Below are positions 17,113-41,700 of a DNA stretch of 64,000 nucleotides, piece after piece. This DNA comes from Gemmatimonadaceae bacterium. Its GTDB lineage: Bacteria; Gemmatimonadota; Gemmatimonadetes; Gemmatimonadales; Gemmatimonadaceae. The stretch is from assembly GCA_020851035.1 (NCBI GenBank), contig JADZDM010000017.1, positions 62,001-126,000 on the forward strand. The letters run 5' to 3'. A program made the translations under genes and the position numbers. Under the pieces are notes generated by a model that was not told the DNA's origin, did no database searches, and was given only the letters and a program-made list of their open reading frames with translations. Within the stretch, counting starts at the first letter, position 1. Every line of letters starts with the position of its first letter.

Positions 17113-17994
17113 TCAAGGTGCAGACACACCCGGCAGTATCGCGGACAGGCGCCGGTGGAACTCGGTGGGGGTGAGGCTGGCGAACTCGCGGAACTCGCGG
17201 ACCAGGTGTGGCTGGTCTGCGTAGCCGCAGCCGAATGCGAGTCTCGACCAGACTGGTGACTCCCCAGGCGGCAGTGCCCGCACCTGCCGCACCACGCGGT
17301 CGAAGCGCACCACACGCGCCAGCGCCTTCGGCGTGAGCCCGACATGTTCGCGAAAGGTGGCCGCCAGCCTGCGCCGGCTCCACTGCAACTCGCGGGTGAT
17401 GTCGTGCACCGGTGCCGCGCCGGGTTCACGCATCACCGCGCGCCAGGCCCACGCGACCGTCGCCGGCATCGCCCGCGCGCGCTCGAGTCGTCGCGCGAGG
17501 GCGACGTCCAGCAGGTCGAATCGCGCGTCCCACGTCGCCGCGTCGCGCAGCCGGCACTCGAGCTGCGTCGCGTCGCGGCCGAGCAGGTCCCCGAGGTGCA
17601 CGGCACGGTTCACGAGCGCGTGCATTGGCACGCCCAGCAACCGCCAGGTGGCGAGGGGCGAGAGATTCAGCTCGATGCCTCGCGACCGGCCGGTGCTGGC
17701 CGTGACGGCCACGGTGTCGAACAGGCCGGCCACGAAACTCCCGAAACGCGCACCGGCCGGCTCCAGCGCGGGGGCATGCACGTCGAGCGGGTCGCCGAGG
17801 TTCACGATCACCGTCACGTTCGGGTGCGGCACCTCGAAGCGGCGTAACGGCGTGCGGGAGCATTCCTCGTAGCCGACGTAGGTCGCGACGCAATCGGCCA
17901 CCGCCGGCGCGGCCGCCTGCGTCGCGAGTTCCCACCAGCCGTCGGCGTGCGCATGCCGCTGCAGGTGTGCCCGGGAGTGGTGCGACCTCAGCAT
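17113..17994 (-). CDS. AraC-family transcriptional regulator
   Basis: The protein has 293 residues. The N-terminal 170 residues form a sensor-like domain ([41 protein letters not shown]) of the type found in DUF6597/AraC-N regulators. The C-terminal 95 residues hold the two helix-turn-helix units of the AraC/XylS domain ([44 protein letters not shown], then [31 protein letters not shown]). It lies upstream of the VOC gene and may control it. The effector is unknown. Confidence 0.92.
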
Positions 17995-18293
17995 GGCGCC
18001 GGGCTGGTGATGGAACCCCGGGCTCGGTTCCGGAATACGTCAGGCATGGGCGAGTCGGGGGGAATGCGGCGGGGGCGGTGCCGGGGGATGCGCGTCACGG
18101 CGCTGGCCCCGGGCCGGCGACAAGCTGGGCACGGGCGCGTCCACGTCACAAGGTGCGGCACGCCCTGCCCCGGTTGAAGTTTCCCGTACCGATGCCGCGC
18201 GAGCGGTCGGGCCCCCTGCGCACGGCGCGCCGTGCCGCTCTCCTCACCACCAGTCCCAGCGCGCCCACGGGCGCGGTGTACCCGATCCTTCCC
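17995..18293. other. Divergent intergenic region, AraC regulator / msrB
   Basis: About 300 bases separate the two divergent starts. It should hold promoters in both directions. I see no clear -35/-10 pair. The bases immediately before msrB (GTACCCGATCCTTCCC) closely resemble those before the Sel1 gene start. Confidence 0.4.
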
Positions 18294-18764
18294 ATGACCA
18301 CACCTTCCTTCGTGAAACCCACCGACGCCGAACTCCGCGCCCGCCTGACGGACGAGCAGTACCAGGTCACGCAGCAGGAGGGCACCGAGCGTGCCTTCCG
18401 CAACGCGTACTGGGACAACCACGAGGCGGGGATCTACGTCGACGTGGTGTCCGGCGAGGCGCTGTTCAGCTCCCTCGACAAGTTCGACTCGGGCACGGGG
18501 TGGCCGAGCTTCACGCGCCCGATCGAGCCCGCCAACGTGCGGACGAAGAGCGACCGGAAGTTCTTCATGACGCGGACCGAGGTGCGCAGCATGCAGGCCG
18601 ACTCGCACCTCGGCCACCTCTTCGACGACGGCCCGAAGCCGACCGGCCAGCGCTACTGCATGAACTCTGCAGCCCTGCGCTTCATCCCGGTGGACCAGCT
18701 CGAGGCCGAGGGCTACGGGCAGTACGTCGCGCTCTTCCGTCCTTCAGCGGTCAAGCACGACTGA
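18294..18764 (+). CDS. msrB: Peptide-methionine (R)-S-oxide reductase MsrB, single-cysteine form
   Basis: The protein has 156 residues with the MsrB fold: [18 protein letters not shown] (18-35), [11 protein letters not shown] (66-76), [16 protein letters not shown] (103-118) and the catalytic [11 protein letters not shown] with Cys122. It reduces methionine-R-sulfoxide in proteins. The two CxxC zinc pairs of many MsrBs are absent (V/D residues stand in their place), and the usual resolving cysteine of CGWPSF is Thr68. C122 is the only cysteine in the protein, so recycling would need an external thiol. There is no signal peptide. ATG at 18294 is preceded by a pyrimidine-rich CCTTCCC rather than a Shine-Dalgarno sequence. 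Confidence 0.93.
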
Positions 18765-18787: not shown

Positions 18788-19037
18788 AAGTGCAACGGCG
18801 TTGACGCAATGGCGCCAAGGGACGCGAAGGACGCAAAGAGGTCGTTCCGCGTTGCGAGGCCTGGCCCGGACGATGATCGAAAGAATTGAAGGGAACTGCG
18901 GTGGCTGTTGCAGTTCCCCGCAAGAAACGAAGCCCCGGTGCGCATGGAGGATGACTCCGCACACCGGGGTTTCGCCGTCTGCAACTTCTTTGCGTCCTTC
19001 GCGCCCTTTGCGCCTTTGCGTCAAGGCTGTTGCACTT
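18788..19037. repeat. Composite palindromic element, copy A
   Basis: The left arm (18788-18839) and right arm (18985-19037) are imperfect inverted repeats of about 50 bases with the shared core GGGCGCGAAGGACGC (GGGACGCGAAGGACGC on the left). Each arm is built of near-identical 9-mers of the form RCGCAAAGG. Between the arms lie an inner hairpin (GGGAACTGC 18891-18899, GCAGTTCCC 18910-18918) and a second hairpin (CCCCGGTG 18933-18940, CACCGGGG 18962-18969). The element sits between convergent msrB and the BNR protein gene. The same design recurs at 37138-37361. Confidence 0.88.
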
Positions 19038-19067: not shown

Positions 19068-22000
19068 CTACATCGCGATCTTGGGCCGGTTCGGCTTGAT
19101 CTCCTCGTTGCTCGGCACGAGCTCGGGGAGGCCATTCGCCTTGAGGATCGCGTTCAGGCGCGGCAGGTGGCCATCGAGCGACTTCTTGATGGCGCCGAGC
19201 TGCACCTCGAGCTTGCCGCTCAGCATCGTGAAGGCCTGTTGCGCCTGCACGGTGGGGCGGTACTCGCCGGAACCGACCGTGCCCGACAGTGCTGCGATCT
19301 GGTTGTTCAGCTTGATCGGGTAGTTGAGCGGGTCCTGGCTGCTCTGGTTCTTGGTCTGGTAGACCTCCTGCTCCGCGCCGGTGAGCTCGCCCATCATCTC
19401 GCCGGAGAGCTGCGTGAACTCCTGTGCCGCGGCGCCGGAGAGGCGCGGGGCGCGGTCGGACACCTGCCAGCGCATGTTGCGCACGGTGCGGACGGCCATG
19501 TTGGCGTCGGTCGTGCGGTCACGGATGGCCAGCAGGAGCTTGAACTGCGCGGCGATGTCGGCATCGGTCGCGTCGCTGCGCGGATCCTTGCGGATGCGGA
19601 ACGGATAGGACTGCGTCACGCCGCCGGCCGTCATGCGGACGGCGTAGGTGCCCGGGGGCGCCATCGGGCCCGTGGTGGAGCCGGCCCACATGATCAGGCC
19701 GTCGAACCGGGCCGCGTCCGGGTAGCGCATGTTCCAGCCGAAGCTGTTCATGCCGGCCTTGTTCGGCACGCGCACCGGGCGCGGGCCGCGGGTGAACAGT
19801 TCCTCGAGGTCCACGGCACCGGGCCCCGACGTGCGTGCGGTCGCGACCTTCGTGGCCGAGTCGCGTGCGAGGCCGGCCTTGGTGACGAGCGAGTCGATCA
19901 TCGCCGTCCGCATCGCGTCCATGCGGAGCGAGTCGGCCTGCGTGTCGGGATCCTGATCACTGGTGAAGCCCGTGATCACCTTGCCGGCGGCGTCGAGGAA
20001 CTCGAAGCGCACCGTCTGGTTCGGGTCCTTGAGCCAGTACTGGAAGCGCGCGCCGCCCGGCGGGTTGCTGCCGATGCCCTCGGCGCCGCCCATCATCTGC
20101 GCGAAGAACCCGCCGCCCCAGTCCGTGCGCCAGGCGTCGGCCGGCGTGAAGAGGTGCGCGGTGGAGGCGAGGATCGCCGGCGTGACCTGCCGCAGCGCGC
20201 TGATGTTGTCCATCACCCAGAACGCGCGGCCGTGGGTGGCGGCGATCAGGTCGTTGTCCTTCACGCGCAGGTCGTGCACCGGCACCAGCGGCAGGTTGCG
20301 GCGCATCGAGCGCCAGTTCATGCCGTCGTCGAACGAGATGTAGACCCCGCGCTCGGTGCCGGCGTAGAGCAGGCCGCGGCGGACGGGATCCTCGCGCACC
20401 ACGCGCACGAAGTGCTCACCGTCGATGCCGCTGATGATCTGCGTCCAGGTCTTGCCGAAGTCGGTGGTCTTGTAGATGATCGGGCGCTTGTCGCCGAGCT
20501 GGTAGCGGTTGGCGGCGACGTAGGCCGTGCCGGCCTCGTAGTGCGAGGGCTCGATGATGGAGATGCGGGTGAAGTCACCGATGCCGGGCGGGGTCACGTT
20601 CTCCCAGGTGCGGCCATCGTTCCGCGAGATGTGCACCAGGCCGTCGTCGGTGCCGACCCAGAGCACGCCCTGCTGCACCGGCGACTCGTCGAACGCGAAG
20701 ATCAGCGCGTAGGTCTCGACGCCCGTCTGGTCCTTGGTGATCGGGCCGCCTGAGGCATCCATCGTCCGCGGGTCGCGGCGCGCGAGTTCCGGCGACACCT
20801 CGGCCCAGCTCTCACCCTCGTTGGTGCTGCGGAAAAGCCGCGACCCGGCGGCGTACAGCACGTTCGGGTTGTGGCGTGAGAAGACGATCGGGAAGGTCCA
20901 CTGGAAGCGCACCGGGATGTCCTTGGACGACCAGCCCATGGGGTTCACCGGGTACACCGTGATGTTGCGCTCGAAGCCCGTGCGCATGTCCTTGCGCGTG
21001 AGCAGGCCGCCGTAGCTGCCGGCGAAGATGATCCACGGCTTGGTCGGGTGCGGCGTGACGTAGCCCGACTCGCCGCCGCCGGCGTCCTTCCAGTCGGCGA
21101 ACTGCACGCGCCCGTCGCCGCGGCTCGGGCCGCAGAGGGTGGAGTTGTCCTGCTGGGCGCCGCAGATCGCGTACGGGTACTCGTTGGTCACGTCCACGTG
21201 GTACCACTGCGCGGTCGGGAAGTCCTCGTCGGTCCAGCTGCGGCCGCCGTCGGTGGTGACGGTGGCGCCGCCGTCATTCGCCTCGATCATGCGGTTCGGG
21301 TCGTTCGGCGCGATCCACAGGTCGTGGTTGTCGCCGTGCGGCACGCGGATGCCCTGCGGGAAGGTCTTCCCGCCGTCGCGCGAGCGGAAGAAGTTCACGT
21401 TCAGCGCATAGACGACGTTCGTGTCCTTTGGATCGGCCACGATGTTCGAGTAGTACCAGGCGCGCTGGCGCAGCTTGCGGTCGCGGTTGATGTAGCTCCA
21501 GGTGGCGCCGGCATCACTGGAGCGGTACACGCCGCCCGAGTCGTGCTCGATCACGGCCCAGATGAGGCTGGGCTTCACGGGGCTGACGGCGAGGCCGATC
21601 TTGCCCGTCACGCCGCGCGGCAGGCCGGCGGCGGTGGTGCTGAGGTTCGTCCACGTCATCCCGCCGTCGGTGGACTTGTGGATGCCGCTGCCCGGGCCAC
21701 CCGAGGAAAGCGACCACGACGTGCGGTACGCCTGCCAGGTGGCGGCGTACATGATGTCGGGGTTGGACGGGTCGAGCTGGAGGTCGATGGCGCCGGTGGA
21801 GTCGTTCACGAAGAGCACCTTGGCGAACGTCTTGCCGCCATCGGTGGTCTTGAAGATGCCCCGGGTCTCGCCGGCCTTGAACGGGTTGCCGAACACGGCC
21901 AGCCAGGCGATGTCCTTGTTGGTCGGGTGAACGCGGATGGCGGCGATGTGTTCGTCGCGGAAGCCGAGGCGCGTCCAGGTCTTGCCGCCGTCGAGGGTCT

Positions 22001-22451
22001 TCCAGAGTCCGTCGCCGCCGGCGGTGTTGCCGCGGATGTCGGTCTCGCCGCCGCCGACCCAGACGATGTCCGGGTTCTGCGGATCGACGGTGATGGCGCC
22101 GATGGTGCCGCCGAAGTAGTTGTCGCTGGCCGCGGCCCAGTTCTGTCCGCCGTCGGTGGTCTTGAAGACGCCGCCGCCGGTGGTGCCCATCCAGTATTCG
22201 TTCGGGCGCTGGACGGAGCCGGTGGCAGCGACGGAGCGTCCGCCGCGGGCGGGGCCGATCTCGCGCCAGCGGAGTCCGCCGAAGGCGGTGGAGTCGAAGG
22301 TCAGCGGGCCCGACGGTGCCGGCTGCACGACGCGGCGCACGGCGGGCCGGGTGGCGGGCCGCGTCGCCTGCGCCTGCAGCGCCAGCGGGAGCAGGCCGGC
22401 CAGTACGAATGCACCGGTGCGCCAGGCACCGGAACGGGAAAGCGTGACCAT
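19068..22451 (-). CDS. Large secreted VPS10/sortilin-type BNR beta-propeller protein
   Basis: The protein has 1127 residues from ATG at 22451, with an AAGGAG element about 13 bases upstream. A signal peptide (hydrophobic 13-28, ends LQAQA) precedes a long run of propeller blades with BNR/Asp-box motifs: GGVFKTTDGGQNW, DGLWKTLDGGKTWTRLG, RGIFKTTDGGKTF, SGIHKSTDGGMTWTNLS, GGVYRSSDAGATWSYI, SRLFRSTNEGESWAEVS, PIIYKTTDFGKTW and GVYISFDDGMNWRSM. These span about residues 60-730. The C-terminal part contains an FnIII/Ig-like fold and a helical tail. Such proteins are annotated as sortilin N-terminal or glycosyl hydrolase in this phylum. The ligand or substrate is unknown; no hydrolase active site is evident. 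Confidence 0.9.
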   Translation of the reverse strand: MVTLSRSGAWRTGAFVLAGLLPLALQAQATRPATRPAVRRVVQPAPSGPLTFDSTAFGGLRWREIGPARGGRSVAATGSVQRPNEYWMGTTGGGVFKTTDGGQNWAAASDNYFGGTIGAITVDPQNPDIVWVGGGETDIRGNTAGGDGLWKTLDGGKTWTRLGFRDEHIAAIRVHPTNKDIAWLAVFGNPFKAGETRGIFKTTDGGKTFAKVLFVNDSTGAIDLQLDPSNPDIMYAATWQAYRTSWSLSSGGPGSGIHKSTDGGMTWTNLSTTAAGLPRGVTGKIGLAVSPVKPSLIWAVIEHDSGGVYRSSDAGATWSYINRDRKLRQRAWYYSNIVADPKDTNVVYALNVNFFRSRDGGKTFPQGIRVPHGDNHDLWIAPNDPNRMIEANDGGATVTTDGGRSWTDEDFPTAQWYHVDVTNEYPYAICGAQQDNSTLCGPSRGDGRVQFADWKDAGGGESGYVTPHPTKPWIIFAGSYGGLLTRKDMRTGFERNITVYPVNPMGWSSKDIPVRFQWTFPIVFSRHNPNVLYAAGSRLFRSTNEGESWAEVSPELARRDPRTMDASGGPITKDQTGVETYALIFAFDESPVQQGVLWVGTDDGLVHISRNDGRTWENVTPPGIGDFTRISIIEPSHYEAGTAYVAANRYQLGDKRPIIYKTTDFGKTWTQIISGIDGEHFVRVVREDPVRRGLLYAGTERGVYISFDDGMNWRSMRRNLPLVPVHDLRVKDNDLIAATHGRAFWVMDNISALRQVTPAILASTAHLFTPADAWRTDWGGGFFAQMMGGAEGIGSNPPGGARFQYWLKDPNQTVRFEFLDAAGKVITGFTSDQDPDTQADSLRMDAMRTAMIDSLVTKAGLARDSATKVATARTSGPGAVDLEELFTRGPRPVRVPNKAGMNSFGWNMRYPDAARFDGLIMWAGSTTGPMAPPGTYAVRMTAGGVTQSYPFRIRKDPRSDATDADIAAQFKLLLAIRDRTTDANMAVRTVRNMRWQVSDRAPRLSGAAAQEFTQLSGEMMGELTGAEQEVYQTKNQSSQDPLNYPIKLNNQIAALSGTVGSGEYRPTVQAQQAFTMLSGKLEVQLGAIKKSLDGHLPRLNAILKANGLPELVPSNEEIKPNRPKIAM

Positions 22452-22525
22452 CACGCGGGTCTCCTTGGGTGGGCAGAACGCGGGAGGGCGGCGTCGACGC
22501 CGCCATCTCATGCGCAGAAGAACGA

Positions 22526-35215: not shown

Positions 35216-35223
35216 TTGCGCAA
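35216..35223. promoter_or_regulatory. TTGCGCAA palindrome in the murQ/GGT divergent gap
   Basis: A perfect 8-base palindrome in an AT-richer patch (to 35232) midway between the divergent starts of murQ and the transpeptidase. Could be an operator; support is only positional. Confidence 0.25.
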
Positions 35224-35326
35224 ACATACACCCCCGGCGAGCTGGACCAGCGGTACGGTCCGGGCACCGGAGGGTGTCTGTGCACAGGTCGTGCCTGCCC
35301 ATCCGACACCTCCACCGACACCGCCG

Positions 35327-37129
35327 ATGCTCCTGCCTCCCTCGACCCGCCGGTCGCTCGCCGCTGTGGCCGCCGCGCTGCTGGCCGCCTCCTGCCGCGC
35401 ACCGCAGCCCGCGGGTCCGGCACCAGCGCCGATCCCGGCACCACCGGCCGCGGTCGTCACCGGTGCACGCGAGGACTCGGTGCGGCGCGACCCGGTGGTC
35501 TTCGCTGACGGCTGGCGGTTCGCCACCAACGCCCCTGCGACCTTCGCCGAGCATGGGATGGTGAGCAGCAACGCCCCGCTGGCCAGTGCGGCCGGTGCCG
35601 AGGTGATGAAGCAGGGCGGGAACGCCGTCGATGCCGCCGTGGCGACGGGGTTCGCGCTGGCCGTGGTCTGGCCCGAGGCCGGCAACATCGGCGGCGGCGG
35701 CTACATGGTGATCCAGATGGCCGATGGCCGGCGCGACGTGGTGGACTACCGCGAGGTCGCACCACTGGCCGCGTCGCGCGACATGTACCTCAAGCCGGAC
35801 GGCACCACCGACGGCAGTATCATCGGCTGGCGCTCGAGCGGGGTACCGGGCGCGGTGGCGGGGCTGCTCGCGGCACACGCGAAGTACGGGCGGCTGCCCC
35901 GCGCGCAGGTGATGGCGCCGGCGCTCCGCATGGCGCGTGACGGCTTCGTGATCGACTCGGGGCTGAACACGAGCATCTCGCGCAGCCGCGCGCTGATCAC
36001 GCGGTTCGCCGGGCGCAGCGTCTTCCTGCCCGGCGACAGCGTGCCGGCGATCGGCTCCACGTTCCGCCAGCCGGTGCTGGCGCGCACGCTCGAGGCCATC
36101 GCCCGTGACGGGGCGGACGTGTACTACCGTGGCTGGATCGCCGACAGCATCGCCGCCGAGGAGCAGCGCGGTGGCGGGATCATCACGAAGGCCGACCTCG
36201 CGGGGTACACGCCGCGCTGGCGCAAGCCGCTGGTCTGGACGTACCGCGACTACACGCTCGTCGGCATGCCGCCGTCGTCATCGGGCGGCGTGACCATGGC
36301 CGAGACGATGAACATCATCGAGCACGAGCGGCGCATGCCGGCGTTCGGCAGCGTGGCCTACCTCCACCTGATGGGCGAGGCGTACCAGCGCGCCTTCATC
36401 GACCGCAACAGCAAGCTGGCGGACCCGGACTTCTTCCCGGTGCCGATGGCGCAGCTCACGAGCAAGGACTACGCCGCGCGGCTCTTCGGCCAGATCGACC
36501 GCACCAAGGCGACGCCGACGCCCGTGACGACGGCGCAGATGGCGGAGGCGATCCACACCACGCACTACTCGGTGGTGGACGGCGACGGCAGCGCGGTGGC
36601 CACCACGACCACGCTCAACAACTCGTGGGGCAGCGGCGTGTACCTGGCGAGTGTCGGCTTCATGATGAACGACGAGATGGACGACTTCGCGGTGCAGCCG
36701 GGGAAGGCGAACATGTTCGGGCTGGTGCAGGGTGAGGCGAATGCGATCCAGCCGGGCAAGCGGATGCTCTCGGCGATGTCACCGACGGTGGTGCTGGATG
36801 CGCAGGGGACGGTGCAGATGGTGGCCGGCGCCGCCGGCGGCCCGCGCATCATCTCGGCCACCAGCCAGGTGATCCTGAACGTGATCGAGTTCGGCATGCC
36901 GCTGGCCGATGCCATGCGCGCCCCGCGCATCCACAACCAGGCCCTCCCCGACGAGCTGCGCCTCGAGACGAACGGCTTTCCCGCCGCCACCGTCGACTCG
37001 CTCCGCGCGATGGGGCACACCGTCGGCTTCCTCGGCGGCATCGCGAACGTCAACGCCATCCGCCGCGTGAAGGGCGGCTGGCACGGGGTCTCCGAGCCGC
37101 GCGCGTTCGGCGCTGCGATCGGCTACTAG
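35327..37129 (+). CDS. ggt: Gamma-glutamyltranspeptidase, lipoprotein form
   Basis: The protein has 600 residues from ATG at 35327, giving a signal with lipobox LLAASC (Cys23). The Ntn-hydrolase motifs are AEHGMVSSNAPLASAAGAEVMKQGGNAVDAAVATGFAL (75-111), GGGGYMVI, and PPSSSGGV (315-322). The autocleavage/active site is TTHYSVVDGDG with nucleophile Thr411. It then continues with SAMSPTVVLD and the C-terminal IANVNAIRRVKGGWHGVSEPRAFGAAIGY. The enzyme matures by self-cleavage before Thr411 and removes gamma-glutamyl groups from glutathione and similar peptides, here at the outer membrane/periplasm. The gene ends in the composite palindrome region. Confidence 0.94.
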   Translation: MLLPPSTRRSLAAVAAALLAASCRAPQPAGPAPAPIPAPPAAVVTGAREDSVRRDPVVFADGWRFATNAPATFAEHGMVSSNAPLASAAGAEVMKQGGNAVDAAVATGFALAVVWPEAGNIGGGGYMVIQMADGRRDVVDYREVAPLAASRDMYLKPDGTTDGSIIGWRSSGVPGAVAGLLAAHAKYGRLPRAQVMAPALRMARDGFVIDSGLNTSISRSRALITRFAGRSVFLPGDSVPAIGSTFRQPVLARTLEAIARDGADVYYRGWIADSIAAEEQRGGGIITKADLAGYTPRWRKPLVWTYRDYTLVGMPPSSSGGVTMAETMNIIEHERRMPAFGSVAYLHLMGEAYQRAFIDRNSKLADPDFFPVPMAQLTSKDYAARLFGQIDRTKATPTPVTTAQMAEAIHTTHYSVVDGDGSAVATTTTLNNSWGSGVYLASVGFMMNDEMDDFAVQPGKANMFGLVQGEANAIQPGKRMLSAMSPTVVLDAQGTVQMVAGAAGGPRIISATSQVILNVIEFGMPLADAMRAPRIHNQALPDELRLETNGFPAATVDSLRAMGHTVGFLGGIANVNAIRRVKGGWHGVSEPRAFGAAIGY

Positions 37130-37137
37130 CAACAGCT

Positions 37138-37361
37138 ACTGCAACTGCTTCGACGCAAAGACGCAAAGGGCGCGAAGGACGCGAAGAGTACGCGCGTAGG
37201 GCAGCGGCTGGTGCAGCTCCAGCATCGAAATCGAGGGGAACTGCTCTGCAGTCGCAGTTCCCCTCAAGTACCCGCGCTGAAAGGCTCAGCGACCCTCGCC
37301 GTGGGAAAGACCCTTTGCGTCCTTCGCGCCCTTAGCGTCTTTGCGTCGAAGCAGTTGCAGT
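37138..37361. repeat. Composite palindromic element, copy B
   Basis: The left arm (37138-37186) and right arm (37313-37361) are 49-base inverted repeats matching at 47 of 49 positions, with the core GGGCGCGAAGGACGC (one substitution between the arms). In the middle is a perfect 12-bp hairpin, GAGGGGAACTGC (37233-37244), 9-base loop, GCAGTTCCCCTC (37254-37265). The right arm reaches the stop codon of the propeller gene. Layout, arm sub-repeats and inner hairpin equal copy A (18788-19037), and both lie between convergent genes. Function unknown; a two-way terminator or a non-autonomous mobile element fits. Confidence 0.92.
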
Positions 37362-38716
37362 CAGCGGATGCGTGCGACCTCGAGCCGGGCGCCCGTGTCG
37401 TCGCGGACGCCCATGTAGACGATGCCGGGGCCGAAGCCGGCGATGACGCGGCCGAAGGGGAATGCGACACGGTCGACGAGCACGCCCTGCCGGTTGACGA
37501 CGTCGTACACCGGGCCGCCGGCGTGCACCTTGCTCGTGCGGATCCAGAGGTTGCCATCGAGGTCGGCGCGGGTGGCGCCGGTGCCGAAGGCGGGGCGGTA
37601 GTCGGGGAGCTCCGACGGCGGGATCATGTTCACCGAGGGCATGGACAGCTGCATCGGCGGGCCACCGGCCGGCGGAGCGCCGCCGCCGCCAGGTGGGCCA
37701 CCCTCGAAGCGCATCACCATCCCACCGCCACCGCCACCGCCACCACCACCACCACCCGGCGGGCCGCCAGCGCCCGCGGCCACGACGACATTCCCGCCAC
37801 CGTTCGCCATCGCGCGGGCACGCATCGCCTCCATCGCCGTCTTCGCGGAATCGAGGAACACCACCTTCTGCTCATCGCTCAGGCGCTGCCACTCGAACGG
37901 GATCTTCGGTGTGCTGGTCCGCGACCCATCCGGGGCGAGCCAGTCCACGTGGTAGTCCGCGCCGCGCACCACGGCGAGGGTGCCATCGGGCAGCAGCGTC
38001 CAGTCGTCCACCACCGGCATGGGGTTCATCACCATCGTCACCGAGATGCGGCCGTTGTCCCCCTGCGTGACACTGGCGCGCGTCTTCGGGATCTTGAAGA
38101 AGCTGGCGGTGTCCAGCGTGCGCGTGCCGAGCGCCACGCGCAGGATCGGCGCCGAGTCGGGCTGTTCCGGCACGCGGAAGGTGCGTTCGCCGCCGGTGAG
38201 CGGCGGCGGCATGGTGGGCAGCGTGAAGCCACGATAGACGATGCGCCCGTTGCTGTCGAAGCCCGGCGTGCCGAACGGTCCACCGACCATGAACTGCGCA
38301 TCGTTGGGGCGCGGCACGGCCATCACCCGGGCGACCTTGCCGCCACCATCGATCACGAGCATCGACAGGGAGGCGGGGTCGACGAACAGCGAGGAGTCGC
38401 CGCGGTATGGAATCAGGCCGCCGGCGCGTGCACCGTAGGCATTGGCGGTGGCGGCGGTGGTGTCGGCGACGATGGCCTCACGCGCGAACGCGGAGTCCAG
38501 CAGCACGAGCTGCCGGCGCGTGATGTCGTTCACCAGCACGCGGCCGCCGGGAAGCGGGCGCACCGCCGAGACGCTGCCGAGGACATCGGCGGGTGACACG
38601 CGCGTGACCGGCCCGAGCGCGCGGACCGGTGGCAGCGCCTGCGCGGCGACGGTGACACTCGCGACGGTGGTGAGCAGCGCGAGGCGCCGCGCCGTGCGAC
38701 GGGAATGGAGCATCAT
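37361..38716 (-). CDS. Exported beta-propeller protein with poly-glycine tract
   Basis: The protein has 451 residues from ATG at 38716. A signal segment (LALLTTVASVTVAAQA) is followed by NHL/6-bladed-propeller-like strands: SVSAVRPLPGGRVLVNDITRRQLVLLD, MLVIDGGGKVARVMAVP, PDGTLAVVRGADYHVDWL, RADLDGNLWIRTSK. Around residues 320-340 an uninterrupted run of 12 glycines is followed by further Gly/Pro-rich sequence (GGPPGGGGAPPAGGPP), a flexible hinge encoded by a trinucleotide repeat. The gene starts 31 bases after the TonB receptor, so they are probably co-transcribed. The function is unknown; it may bind a ligand at the surface. Confidence 0.8.
   Translation of the reverse strand: MMLHSRRTARRLALLTTVASVTVAAQALPPVRALGPVTRVSPADVLGSVSAVRPLPGGRVLVNDITRRQLVLLDSAFAREAIVADTTAATANAYGARAGGLIPYRGDSSLFVDPASLSMLVIDGGGKVARVMAVPRPNDAQFMVGGPFGTPGFDSNGRIVYRGFTLPTMPPPLTGGERTFRVPEQPDSAPILRVALGTRTLDTASFFKIPKTRASVTQGDNGRISVTMVMNPMPVVDDWTLLPDGTLAVVRGADYHVDWLAPDGSRTSTPKIPFEWQRLSDEQKVVFLDSAKTAMEAMRARAMANGGGNVVVAAGAGGPPGGGGGGGGGGGGMVMRFEGGPPGGGGAPPAGGPPMQLSMPSVNMIPPSELPDYRPAFGTGATRADLDGNLWIRTSKVHAGGPVYDVVNRQGVLVDRVAFPFGRVIAGFGPGIVYMGVRDDTGARLEVARIR
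37722..37757. repeat. ACC/GCC trinucleotide tract coding the glycine run
   Basis: Twelve consecutive triplets of the GGN type on the minus strand, with a pure ACC sub-run near 37743-37754. Tracts like this can slip during replication; here a change of whole triplets would keep the frame. Confidence 0.7.
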
Positions 38717-38747
38717 GGGTGCAGCACCTGGAGCGGGGGCGAGGAGG

Positions 38748-41700
38748 TCAACGGATGATGATGGTCTGGCCACCACCACCCTGGGGAATGTTCATGCCGC
38801 CGCCCATGAATCCGCCACCGAACTCGCTGCCACCCACGGTGCCGGACCGGATGGAGGCGAGGTAGCGGAGGTCGAGGTGGCTGGCGACGAGGGTGGGCAG
38901 CCGGCGCCGCTGGTCTGCCGTCAGCAGGCCGCGCACGGCCGGCGCGAGCACGCGCAGCGCGTCGATCGACGCCTCGCGCGCGCGCTTGTACTGCCCGAAG
39001 GCGATGTCGTGATCGTAGCGGTCGTCCAGGCGCGCGAACTCCCGCACCACCGGCGCCCAGATCTGGCTCAGCCGGATGGTGTAGCTGCGGTTCATCGTCG
39101 CGATGCTGTCGGCCTGCAGCGCCGTGAGCTGGAGTGAGTCGGACTGGCGGAGGATCTGCGCCATGGGATTGATGGTCACGCCACCGCCGCCGTACATCGC
39201 CTGGAGCTGCGGCTCGGGAGCCTTCTGGCCAGGGGTGCGCCGGCCGCGGTCGAGCTGCTGCGTGAGCACCTGGCGTTCGCGCGACGGGCCGAGGTCGAAG
39301 CGCATCAGCGCGGTCACGGTGACCGGGGCCCGGAACGTGGTGACCGCCGGTCGCGTGGCCCCGAAGCGCTGGTTCACCTCGTAGCGGAAGGTCCGCGTGC
39401 CGGGATCGAAGCCGCGCACGTACAGCAGCGTGGCATCCGGCTGCGCTGGCTGCCCCCAGCCCCGCAGCTTGCCGGAGCCGTGCAGGAGCAGGTCGGCGGC
39501 ACCGAGCGGGTTGCTCACCTGCAGGGAGAGTGTCGCGCGCTGCGGCAGGCGCAGCTTGAGGGGGTTGAACGACAGGCTGAGGAAGGCGTTCTGCGTCCAT
39601 GCCCCGCGGCAGCTGTTGCGCGCGGCCAGGGTCCCGAGCTGCCGGGTGAGGCAGTCGCGCGCGTCGGCACCGGCACCGGCCAGCAGCGCGCCCATGTCGG
39701 CGGCCAGCTGGCCACCGGTCGAGGGGGCAAAGACGAAGGCGCGGTCGTTCTGGAGCCCATCGCCGTTCACGTCGCCGCCCACCACCGGCGTGTACGGGCT
39801 GCCGGAGCGGATGCTGCCGAACCAGGCCAGCCGCACGGTGTTGAACGCGTTGTAGCTCAGCGAGTACTGCCACTGGTGCCGCGTGTCGAAGCCGGAGCGC
39901 GACCACTCGATGGCCCGCGGGTCGCCGGTGGTGCTCTGGAAGCCACGGTACTGCTCGCGCACGTTGCCGTACACGTACGCCAGGCTCCATTGCACGCGCG
40001 TGTTGAACGTCGACGGGCTGAGTCGCACGCTCACCTGCCGCGACTCGCTGCGCAGGTCGGAGCGGTTCGCGTTCACCACGTTGAACAGCTGCGACACGCG
40101 TGAGTCGCGCGGGGCAGCGGCACCGGTGGCCGGGTCGATGCTCGCGACCGGGACGAACACCGGACGCCCCGCCTCCTCGGCCAGCGAGAAGCCCGTCTCG
40201 CCGGCGAAGTTCAGGTCGAACGTGCCCGGCTGGTTCAGGTTGCGCGAGTAGGTGAGGTCGATGCTGGCATTGAAGCGGTTGCGCAGCACGGGACCGTTCC
40301 ACTGGAGGTTCGAGCGCAGGCTGCGCGTCGCGTTCCAGCCTGCGTCGAACAGCGTCACGTTCGGCGCGATGCTCGAGAACGACGTGGGCTGCAACCCGTC
40401 GGCACACAGCACCGGGATGGTGGACGGGTCGGTGAGCCAGGTGCCCCACTGCGGCACCGGCGCGGCGGCGCCGAAGCAGCCAAGCTGCTGCACCGCGCTG
40501 GCGAGCCCGGTGTTGTCCAGCGCCTGGCCGAGGAGCGTGGCCTGTGGCGTGTTCTGGAACACGCCCGCACCGCCCCGCACCACCGCCCGCGGGCCGCGCA
40601 CCGCGCCGTCGAAGCCGCCGATCTGCGGTGCGGTGCCGTACGTCCAGCTGAAGCCGACCCGCGGGCTCACGTACACGCGGTTCGGGACTGCGGTGTTCCG
40701 CGTGCCGAAGAGGCGCTCGATGTCGGCGTTCGCCGCCGGCCCGCGATCGAACCGGTTGGCATCGACGCGCACGCCGTACTGCACCTGCAGGTCGTTGCTG
40801 CGGCGCCAGGCATCACCGAGCGACATGGCGGCGACCACCTGTCCCCCGCTCCGCAACCGCGGTTCGAGCTGTCGCGTGTACGACACGGCGCGTCCCGCCT
40901 CGAGGTCGGCGAGCGAGTTGAAGCTGTAGGTGCCGAACCGGTTCGTGGTCTGGTCGATGCGGAAGATGTCGCGCCGCAGTTCACTGGTGAGCTTCACGCG
41001 GTGCCGGCTCGAGCGCGAGAACCACGACAGGGTGTTGAGCACCCCGGTGCTGGCGTTCTCCTGGCTCGTGGCGAGGAAGGGGTTGCCGCCGAACGACAGC
41101 AACCGCAGCCCCTCGGTGCCGTCGGACAGCGCCGAGTTCACGCGCACCGTCGCATTCGGCAGCTCGAGGAAGCTGGTGCCGGCGTTGCGCGAGGCGCTGA
41201 GGTTGACGTTGGTCTCGGTGAGGATGCCGCTGCTGAAGTACGCGGAATGCCTGGCGGCCAGCCCGCCGTTCCAGTTGGTGCGCTCGCCACTGTGCGACGG
41301 CAGCTCGGTCACGGAGCCGCTCACCGGCGAGGTACGGTTCCAGGAGGCGTTGCCGGTGATGGTGAACGCCTGGCCGGTGCGTGACCCGGGGGGCGCGACG
41401 TTGATGGAGCCGAACAGCAGCCCCTGGTCGCCGTGCCGCACCTGCGGATTCCCGGCCGGCCGGGCCGGGATGCCGAGCGCCGACAGGATGCCCAAGAGCC
41501 GCGTCGCCGAATCAGGCGAGACACCACTCGTCAGCAGGCCGTCGGCGCCGGTGTTGAGCAGCGTGCGCAGGTCGTTGCTGCGGCGGCCCAACTGGTACGA
41601 GAGGTTGTAGAACGCCTTGTCGGGGCGGATCGGGCCGGCGACCAGCCCGCCGAGCGACAGGTTGCTGAACTCCTGCCCCAGCGCGCGCGCCGACGCGTCG

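Follow-up and report, generated by a model that had tools for sequence, protein, structure and literature searches.

The palindrome at positions 37138-37361 of the window (the whole 64,000-nt stretch of Gemmatimonadaceae DNA analysed here), hereafter copy B, belongs to a family of short non-coding repeats dispersed through the host genome. On balance it is probably a non-autonomous MITE- or REPIN-like element of a system linked to GxxExxY genes, tolerated or used at the ends of genes. We observed that the family is dispersed, that its cores have been copied recently, that its members sit at gene ends, and that it is tied to GxxExxY genes both statistically and by sequence. The arm type is restricted to the host species among the congeners compared (G001 and G002).

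Structure and setting of copy B

An inverted-repeat search ranked copy B above every other inverted repeat of the 64-kb window; its two 52-nt arms are 94% complementary and lie 120 nt apart (Table 1). The original prediction, made from the sequence alone, had paired 47 of 49 arm bases, and the search confirmed near-complete pairing, with 49 of 52 bases paired. The best-stem score of copy B was 43.5, compared with a maximum of 11.5 among shuffles, and its RNA fold reached -155.8 kcal/mol with 0 of 200 shuffles as good. When RNA folding was used as a check, both copy B (z -13.7) and the second palindrome of the window, copy A (z -11.5), proved far beyond chance. A core and an inner hairpin had been predicted to be common to the two copies, and this was borne out: GGGCGCGAAGGACGC is exact in copy A and also in copy B, at 37168-37182 (+) and 37317-37331 (-), and the inner hairpin of copy B is a 12-bp stem formed by GAGGGGAACTGC and GCAGTTCCCCTC at 37233-37244/37254-37265. 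The spacers do differ between copies A and B, as had been claimed, but elsewhere in the genome they are common within subfamilies.

Copy B fills the gap between two convergent stop codons. The last base of its right arm is the first base of the TCA at 37361-37363, the reverse complement of the TGA with which the minus-strand gene stops; the right arm does, as predicted, reach the stop codon of what had been taken for a propeller gene. The convergent setting noted for both copies also held, and it is general across the family (see below).

Table 1. Coordinates of copies A and B and of their flanking genes in the window
Feature	Position	Strand	Remarks
Copy B left arm	37138-37189	+	Outer AACTGC motif, then 9-nt units GACGCAAAG-ACGCAAAG-GGCGCGAAG-GACGCGAAG
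Copy B left spacer	37190-37232		Subfamily specific
Copy B inner hairpin	37233-37265		GAGGGGAACTGC-9 nt-GCAGTTCCCCTC; common to many family copies
Copy B right spacer	37266-37309		
Copy B right arm	37310-37361	-	Reverse complement of left arm, 49/52
Gamma-glutamyltranspeptidase gene (PF01019), left of copy B	35216-37129	+	Stop codon 37127-37129
Convergent gene right of copy B (the predicted propeller gene)	37361-38779	-	No Pfam match
Copy A left arm	18788-18842	+	
Copy A right arm	18984-19037	-	
SelR-domain gene (PF01641), left of copy A	17967-18764	+	
Gene with Sortilin-Vps10/BNR repeats, right of copy A	19068-22511	-	Convergent

A dispersed family in the host genome

A 17-base arm motif, with at most 1 mismatch allowed, gave 70 matches in the 4.97-Mb genome and 2 for the reversed control. 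By pairing arms and then reading the flanks, we located at least 55 dispersed non-coding elements, most of about 200 nt, in both orientations and with unrelated flanks; as the count comes from pattern searches, 55 is a lower bound. The consensus arm, GAACGGCTTTGACGCAAAGGCGCAAAGGGCGCGAAGGACGCAAAGA, consists of an outer AACNGC followed by 8-9-nt units of the CGCAAAG type, and many of the copies have GGGAACTGC-N-GCAGTTCCC as a hairpin at the centre. Of the 55 copies, 52 have a relative by core similarity, and the spacers are subfamily specific. One subfamily (L061, L062, L066, L067, L068, L071, which is copy A, and L082) carries a second conserved hairpin, of the GAGGCCCCGATGCGC...GCGCATCGGGGCCTC type, in one spacer.

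Core identity reaches 96-98% in three pairs of copies (L066/L067, L050/L056, and L090/L193) whose flanks are at random identity, and therefore shows recent copying within the genome; in L050/L056 and L090/L193 the partners are inverted relative to each other. The arms of these near-identical pairs are merely 72-85% identical and differ mostly towards the outside, as would be expected if conversion tracts ended in the arms or if the arms were rewritten fast. Gene conversion between existing elements fits this difference between arms and cores as well as transposition does. Together, the 55 or more dispersed copies, their two orientations and their unrelated flanks support well the shared mobile origin that the original prediction had offered as one explanation, with further evidence from the three recently copied cores and from the absence of the arm sequence in two congeners. 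No length of target-site duplication stands out among the 55 copies, for which one 3-nt offset among many tested was above expectation, and no plasmid or phage source of the element was matched. Several contigs of the host assembly (G000) end in or beside family copies (C5:1-334, C22:35750-35922, C28:1-145, and C1:214798-215056), as expected of a repeat that breaks short-read assembly.

Placement at gene ends

Gene contexts were called by a codon-model gene finder. Convergent genes flank 36 of the 55 copies, 18 copies are in tandem and 1 in divergent contexts, whereas only 18 of 144 other adjacent gene pairs in the same stretches (12.5%) are convergent (p=5e-13). From the stop codon to the arm start, counted from GACGC, the median distance is 27 nt. 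Of the 18 tandem copies, 16 lie 16-43 nt past the upstream stop, and the distance to the next start runs from 26 to 1794 nt. Some copies even provide the stop codon of the neighbouring gene through the TGA of TTTGACGC, as in L067. At that locus (L067:1870-1935) the 3' end of the gene has a run of GCAACA repeats that continues into the element, where TTTGACGC gives the stop codon. We also considered hairpins as a general trait of convergent junctions, a reading that was rejected because most copy-free junctions in the window have short spacers and no stem. The gene-end niche may come from tolerance, from targeting, or from a terminator function.

Covariation between the arms

The left arms of the 55 copies depart from the consensus 273 times; for 74 of these departures (27%) that copy's right arm shows the matching change, compared with 12% (maximum 19%) in permuted arms. 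A separate alignment test of arm covariation agrees (z 4.4), and in copy B itself 3 of 4 departures are matched. The arms thus stay partly alike, with most changes uncompensated. A strict pairing constraint was rejected, since the variable base of AACNGC and most other changes are unmatched across arms. Selection for structure, the other explanation in the original prediction, finds partial support in the excess of matched changes over permuted arms but is opposed by the uncompensated majority. Instead of selection, template switching or conversion in the palindrome, or descent within subfamilies, could have produced the excess; some of the sharing between arms is subfamily descent, because L073 and L075 carry the CGGCCTGCGGCCGC insert in both arms.

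Congeners and other species

With 2 mismatches allowed, neither congener (G001, G002) has the family arm sequence, which is almost missing from the bacterial family as well. The orthologous A and B junctions in the congeners, at which empty sites had been proposed as a check, yielded no clean empty site, as the congeners carry other palindromes there. In G002 the convergent genes around copy B are kept, with a 105-nt spacer that holds a different, shorter palindrome (stem TCGCAAAACAGCAACTGACGCA). The site orthologous to copy A is occupied by a palindrome with 37-nt arms in G002 and by an unrelated hairpin in G001. The stem scores are 29.5 and 17.0 for the G002 palindromes at the A and B junctions (z -10.2 and -5.2), and 18 for the G001 hairpin at the A junction (z -6.7). 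That these junctions hold other palindromes in the congeners speaks for some function or preference at such sites, on a comparison of two junctions.

Palindromes with arms like ATCGCAAAACAGCAACTGACGCA were seen in G002 (L295, L372, L385, and L388), likewise at gene ends. As its palindromes have CGCAAA(A)CNGC-type arms in common, G002 seems to own a separate palindrome family. Arm pairs of similar type were also found in Gammaproteobacteria, Rhodocyclales, Sorangium, candidate division BRC1, and further genomes.

Association with GxxExxY genes

CGCAAAG-type arms stand on both sides of a gene of the little-studied GxxExxY family (TIGR04256) in G367 (L186) and in a Gammaproteobacteria MAG (L135). 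In L135 the gene with its arms (L135:3390-3830) directly follows one stop codon and lies between what appear, by eye, to be the tail of trpG and the beginning of trpD. In the host genome, inverted repeats of short units enclose three of the four GxxExxY genes, and a palindrome adjoins the fourth. The arms that bracket the host gene L032 (C2:79051-79404) resemble the family arm, with scores of 16.5 and 17.0 against it, whereas shuffles reach at most 14.5 and 12.0.

The association extends through the phylum. Counting a score of 16 or more as a bracketing inverted repeat, we found one at 41 of 89 usable GxxExxY loci, compared with 2.5% for swapped flanks and 0.7% for shifted windows; among control genes, the proportion was 0 of 28 for ParE and 26 of 28 for four-helix-bundle genes (TIGR02436). 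When complete palindromes within 300 nt of the gene were included, 71 of the 89 GxxExxY loci carried a bracketing repeat or an adjacent palindrome, and 4 of 27 ParE loci did. The bracketing arms follow a unit grammar, C[AG]CN[ACG]A[AGT] (CRCNVAD) at a spacing of 7-11 nt, in 27 of 41 GxxExxY cases; of 24 four-helix arms none shows it, and of random windows 1.4% do. Palindromes adjoining GxxExxY genes show the same grammar in 16 of 30 cases and have AACNGC near the outer end in 14 of 30, compared with 8% of random window pairs. Both features, arms of CRCNVAD units and an outer AACNGC, are present in copy B. The median distance of GxxExxY elements is 31 nt from gene 3' ends and 73 nt from 5' ends, so they also lie closer to the former. 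Of 94 GxxExxY loci in the phylum, only 4 have an arm that scores at least 14 when compared with the family's own arm, so that common grammar carries the link more than common sequence does. Bracketing could also mean that GxxExxY is a passenger.

The four-helix genes with bracketing repeats come from other genomes of the bacterial family (L312-L341). Their inverted repeats are made of short tandem units of GGTATCA, GGAGTTG, and GGGCGAC types, unlike the GxxExxY units, and often touch the neighbour's stop codon. In spite of this bracketing, we rejected the four-helix-bundle genes as relatives of copy B, because their arms lack the unit grammar and TIGR02436 has no match in the host genome. At a further locus, L187 (G283:C29:40326-40800), the arms are intact but the GxxExxY frame between them has decayed; the genome concerned has 67 arm-like matches.

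In 39 aligned GxxExxY proteins the residues E28, D68, E78, and K80 (L032 numbering) are invariant, a set like that of PD-(D/E)XK nucleases. Structure prediction gave a confident model, with a pLDDT of 95.9. Foldseek returned no match for it at E<=0.001, the top hits being SSO0001 and lambda exonuclease-like proteins with E of 1.5e-3 and above; the nuclease reading therefore rests on the Pfam family name and the conserved residues.

Proposed mechanism and alternatives

From this association, GxxExxY may be put forward tentatively as a candidate mobiliser of the palindromes, a role that we consider possible rather than probable. The GxxExxY nuclease, or a relative acting in trans, would recognise the extruded arm hairpin or cruciform and promote insertion or copying. 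Insertions would survive mainly at gene ends, where they may do little harm or help to separate convergent transcripts. Template switching or conversion in the palindrome would probably keep the two arms of a copy partly alike, and conversion between copies, in tracts that end within the arms, would spread the cores. A more far-reaching version, which strikes us as unlikely, would be an undescribed class of minimal mobile elements that crosses phyla and is mobilised by GxxExxY. This PD-(D/E)XK nuclease of about 130 residues would have hairpins or cruciforms built of 8-9-nt units as its substrate and gene 3' ends as its target, and would disperse non-coding palindromes like copy B in trans, with the four-helix-bundle (TIGR02436) genes as a parallel class using other units.

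The element may instead act in transcription. As a bidirectional terminator or mRNA 3'-end stabiliser kept by selection, its long stem would form in either convergent transcript and stop or protect both, while the sequence turns over and the structure stays. Placement just past stop codons in convergent and tandem contexts alike would follow directly, and the very stable folds of copies A and B, the partial compensation between arms, and the other palindromes or hairpins at the orthologous junctions in G002 (A and B) and G001 (A) all agree with such a role, although the orthologous comparison covers two junctions. We nevertheless regard it as doubtful that this explains the family. No Rho-independent terminator, i.e. 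a GC-rich hairpin followed by a T run, was found on either strand at copy B, most other convergent junctions in the window have no hairpin, and a terminator would need much shorter arms than these, whose changes are mostly uncompensated. The link to GxxExxY genes would also be left unexplained.

Copy B could also be a conventional MITE, the internally deleted derivative of a DDE or Y1 transposon that has been lost or lies elsewhere in the genome, with the GxxExxY genes as passengers between similar repeats. The long terminal inverted repeats, the small size, and the dispersed near-identical cores in both orientations would suit such an origin, which appears improbable given that a target-site duplication was not found and that the arm grammar is that of the GxxExxY repeats. 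A structured regulatory RNA or another host-encoded RNA family, for which the strong fold could speak, is highly improbable, since there is no Rfam family at gathering score, the spacers vary, and the copies follow unrelated genes. A known RNA family was likewise rejected: the sole sub-threshold Rfam match was a plant miRNA precursor model at 46 bits (cut-off 137), as any long hairpin would give.

The reading that we prefer, a non-autonomous palindrome of a GxxExxY-linked system operating in the manner of REPINs with RAYTs (PMC3116915), would have wider consequences. Many bacterial genomes contain genes for GxxExxY and for four-helix-bundle (S23-like) proteins to which, to our knowledge, no role has been assigned, and the repeats give them one that can be tested. 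They also provide a possible reason why short repeats of CGCAAAG, CACGGAG, and CACGGAT types recur in unrelated genomes. The placement at gene ends amounts to a natural experiment on how selfish palindromes and transcription termination share one set of sites, and the turnover of sequence there can be seen by comparing congeners.

Comparison with known systems

REPINs and their RAYT genes (PMC3116915, PMC2817692) are among the closest in kind: like the copy B family, they are short extragenic inverted repeats that form hairpins, occur in many copies, and are species-specific, with a family gene that has such palindromes beside it and dispersal of non-autonomous copies in trans proposed. The copy B family likewise consists of extragenic inverted-repeat doublets that form hairpins and are present in many copies. 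The systems differ in the enzyme, a Y1 tyrosine transposase for RAYT and a PD-(D/E)XK-type GxxExxY gene here, and in the arms, which in the copy B family are about 50 nt long and built of 8-9-nt units. REPINs are described as randomly distributed over extragenic space (PMC3116915), whereas the copy B family is strongly biased to gene 3' ends.

Bacterial MITEs (PMC10969869) are also small, non-coding, and dispersed, with terminal inverted repeats. The copy B family differs from them in that no target-site duplication was found and that cores are more conserved than arms between recent copies. As for a parent element, the GxxExxY gene L032 does lie between similar arms, but GxxExxY is not a known transposase.

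The intervening sequences (IVS) of 23S rRNA have terminal inverted repeats that form a long stem; in Coxiella, where a small ORF is optional, the IVS has been called selfish and past transposition has been proposed (PMC4990558). Such IVS lie in a 23S rRNA helix and may carry an S23 four-helix ORF, whereas copies of the present family follow protein-coding genes at their 3' ends, have no ORF, and go with GxxExxY rather than the four-helix protein.

With GxxExxY loci (TIGR04256, PF13366) themselves, the likeness lies in the family-like arms around the host gene, and the difference in copy B having no gene; repeats around GxxExxY genes were not described in the literature searched. That literature covered few subscription journals, and within it our data suggest a small mobile-repeat system that had not been described. 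MITE-like and REPIN-like elements are known kinds; what is new relative to the literature searched is the pairing with a small PD-(D/E)XK-type protein, the unit grammar of the arms, and the bias to gene ends.
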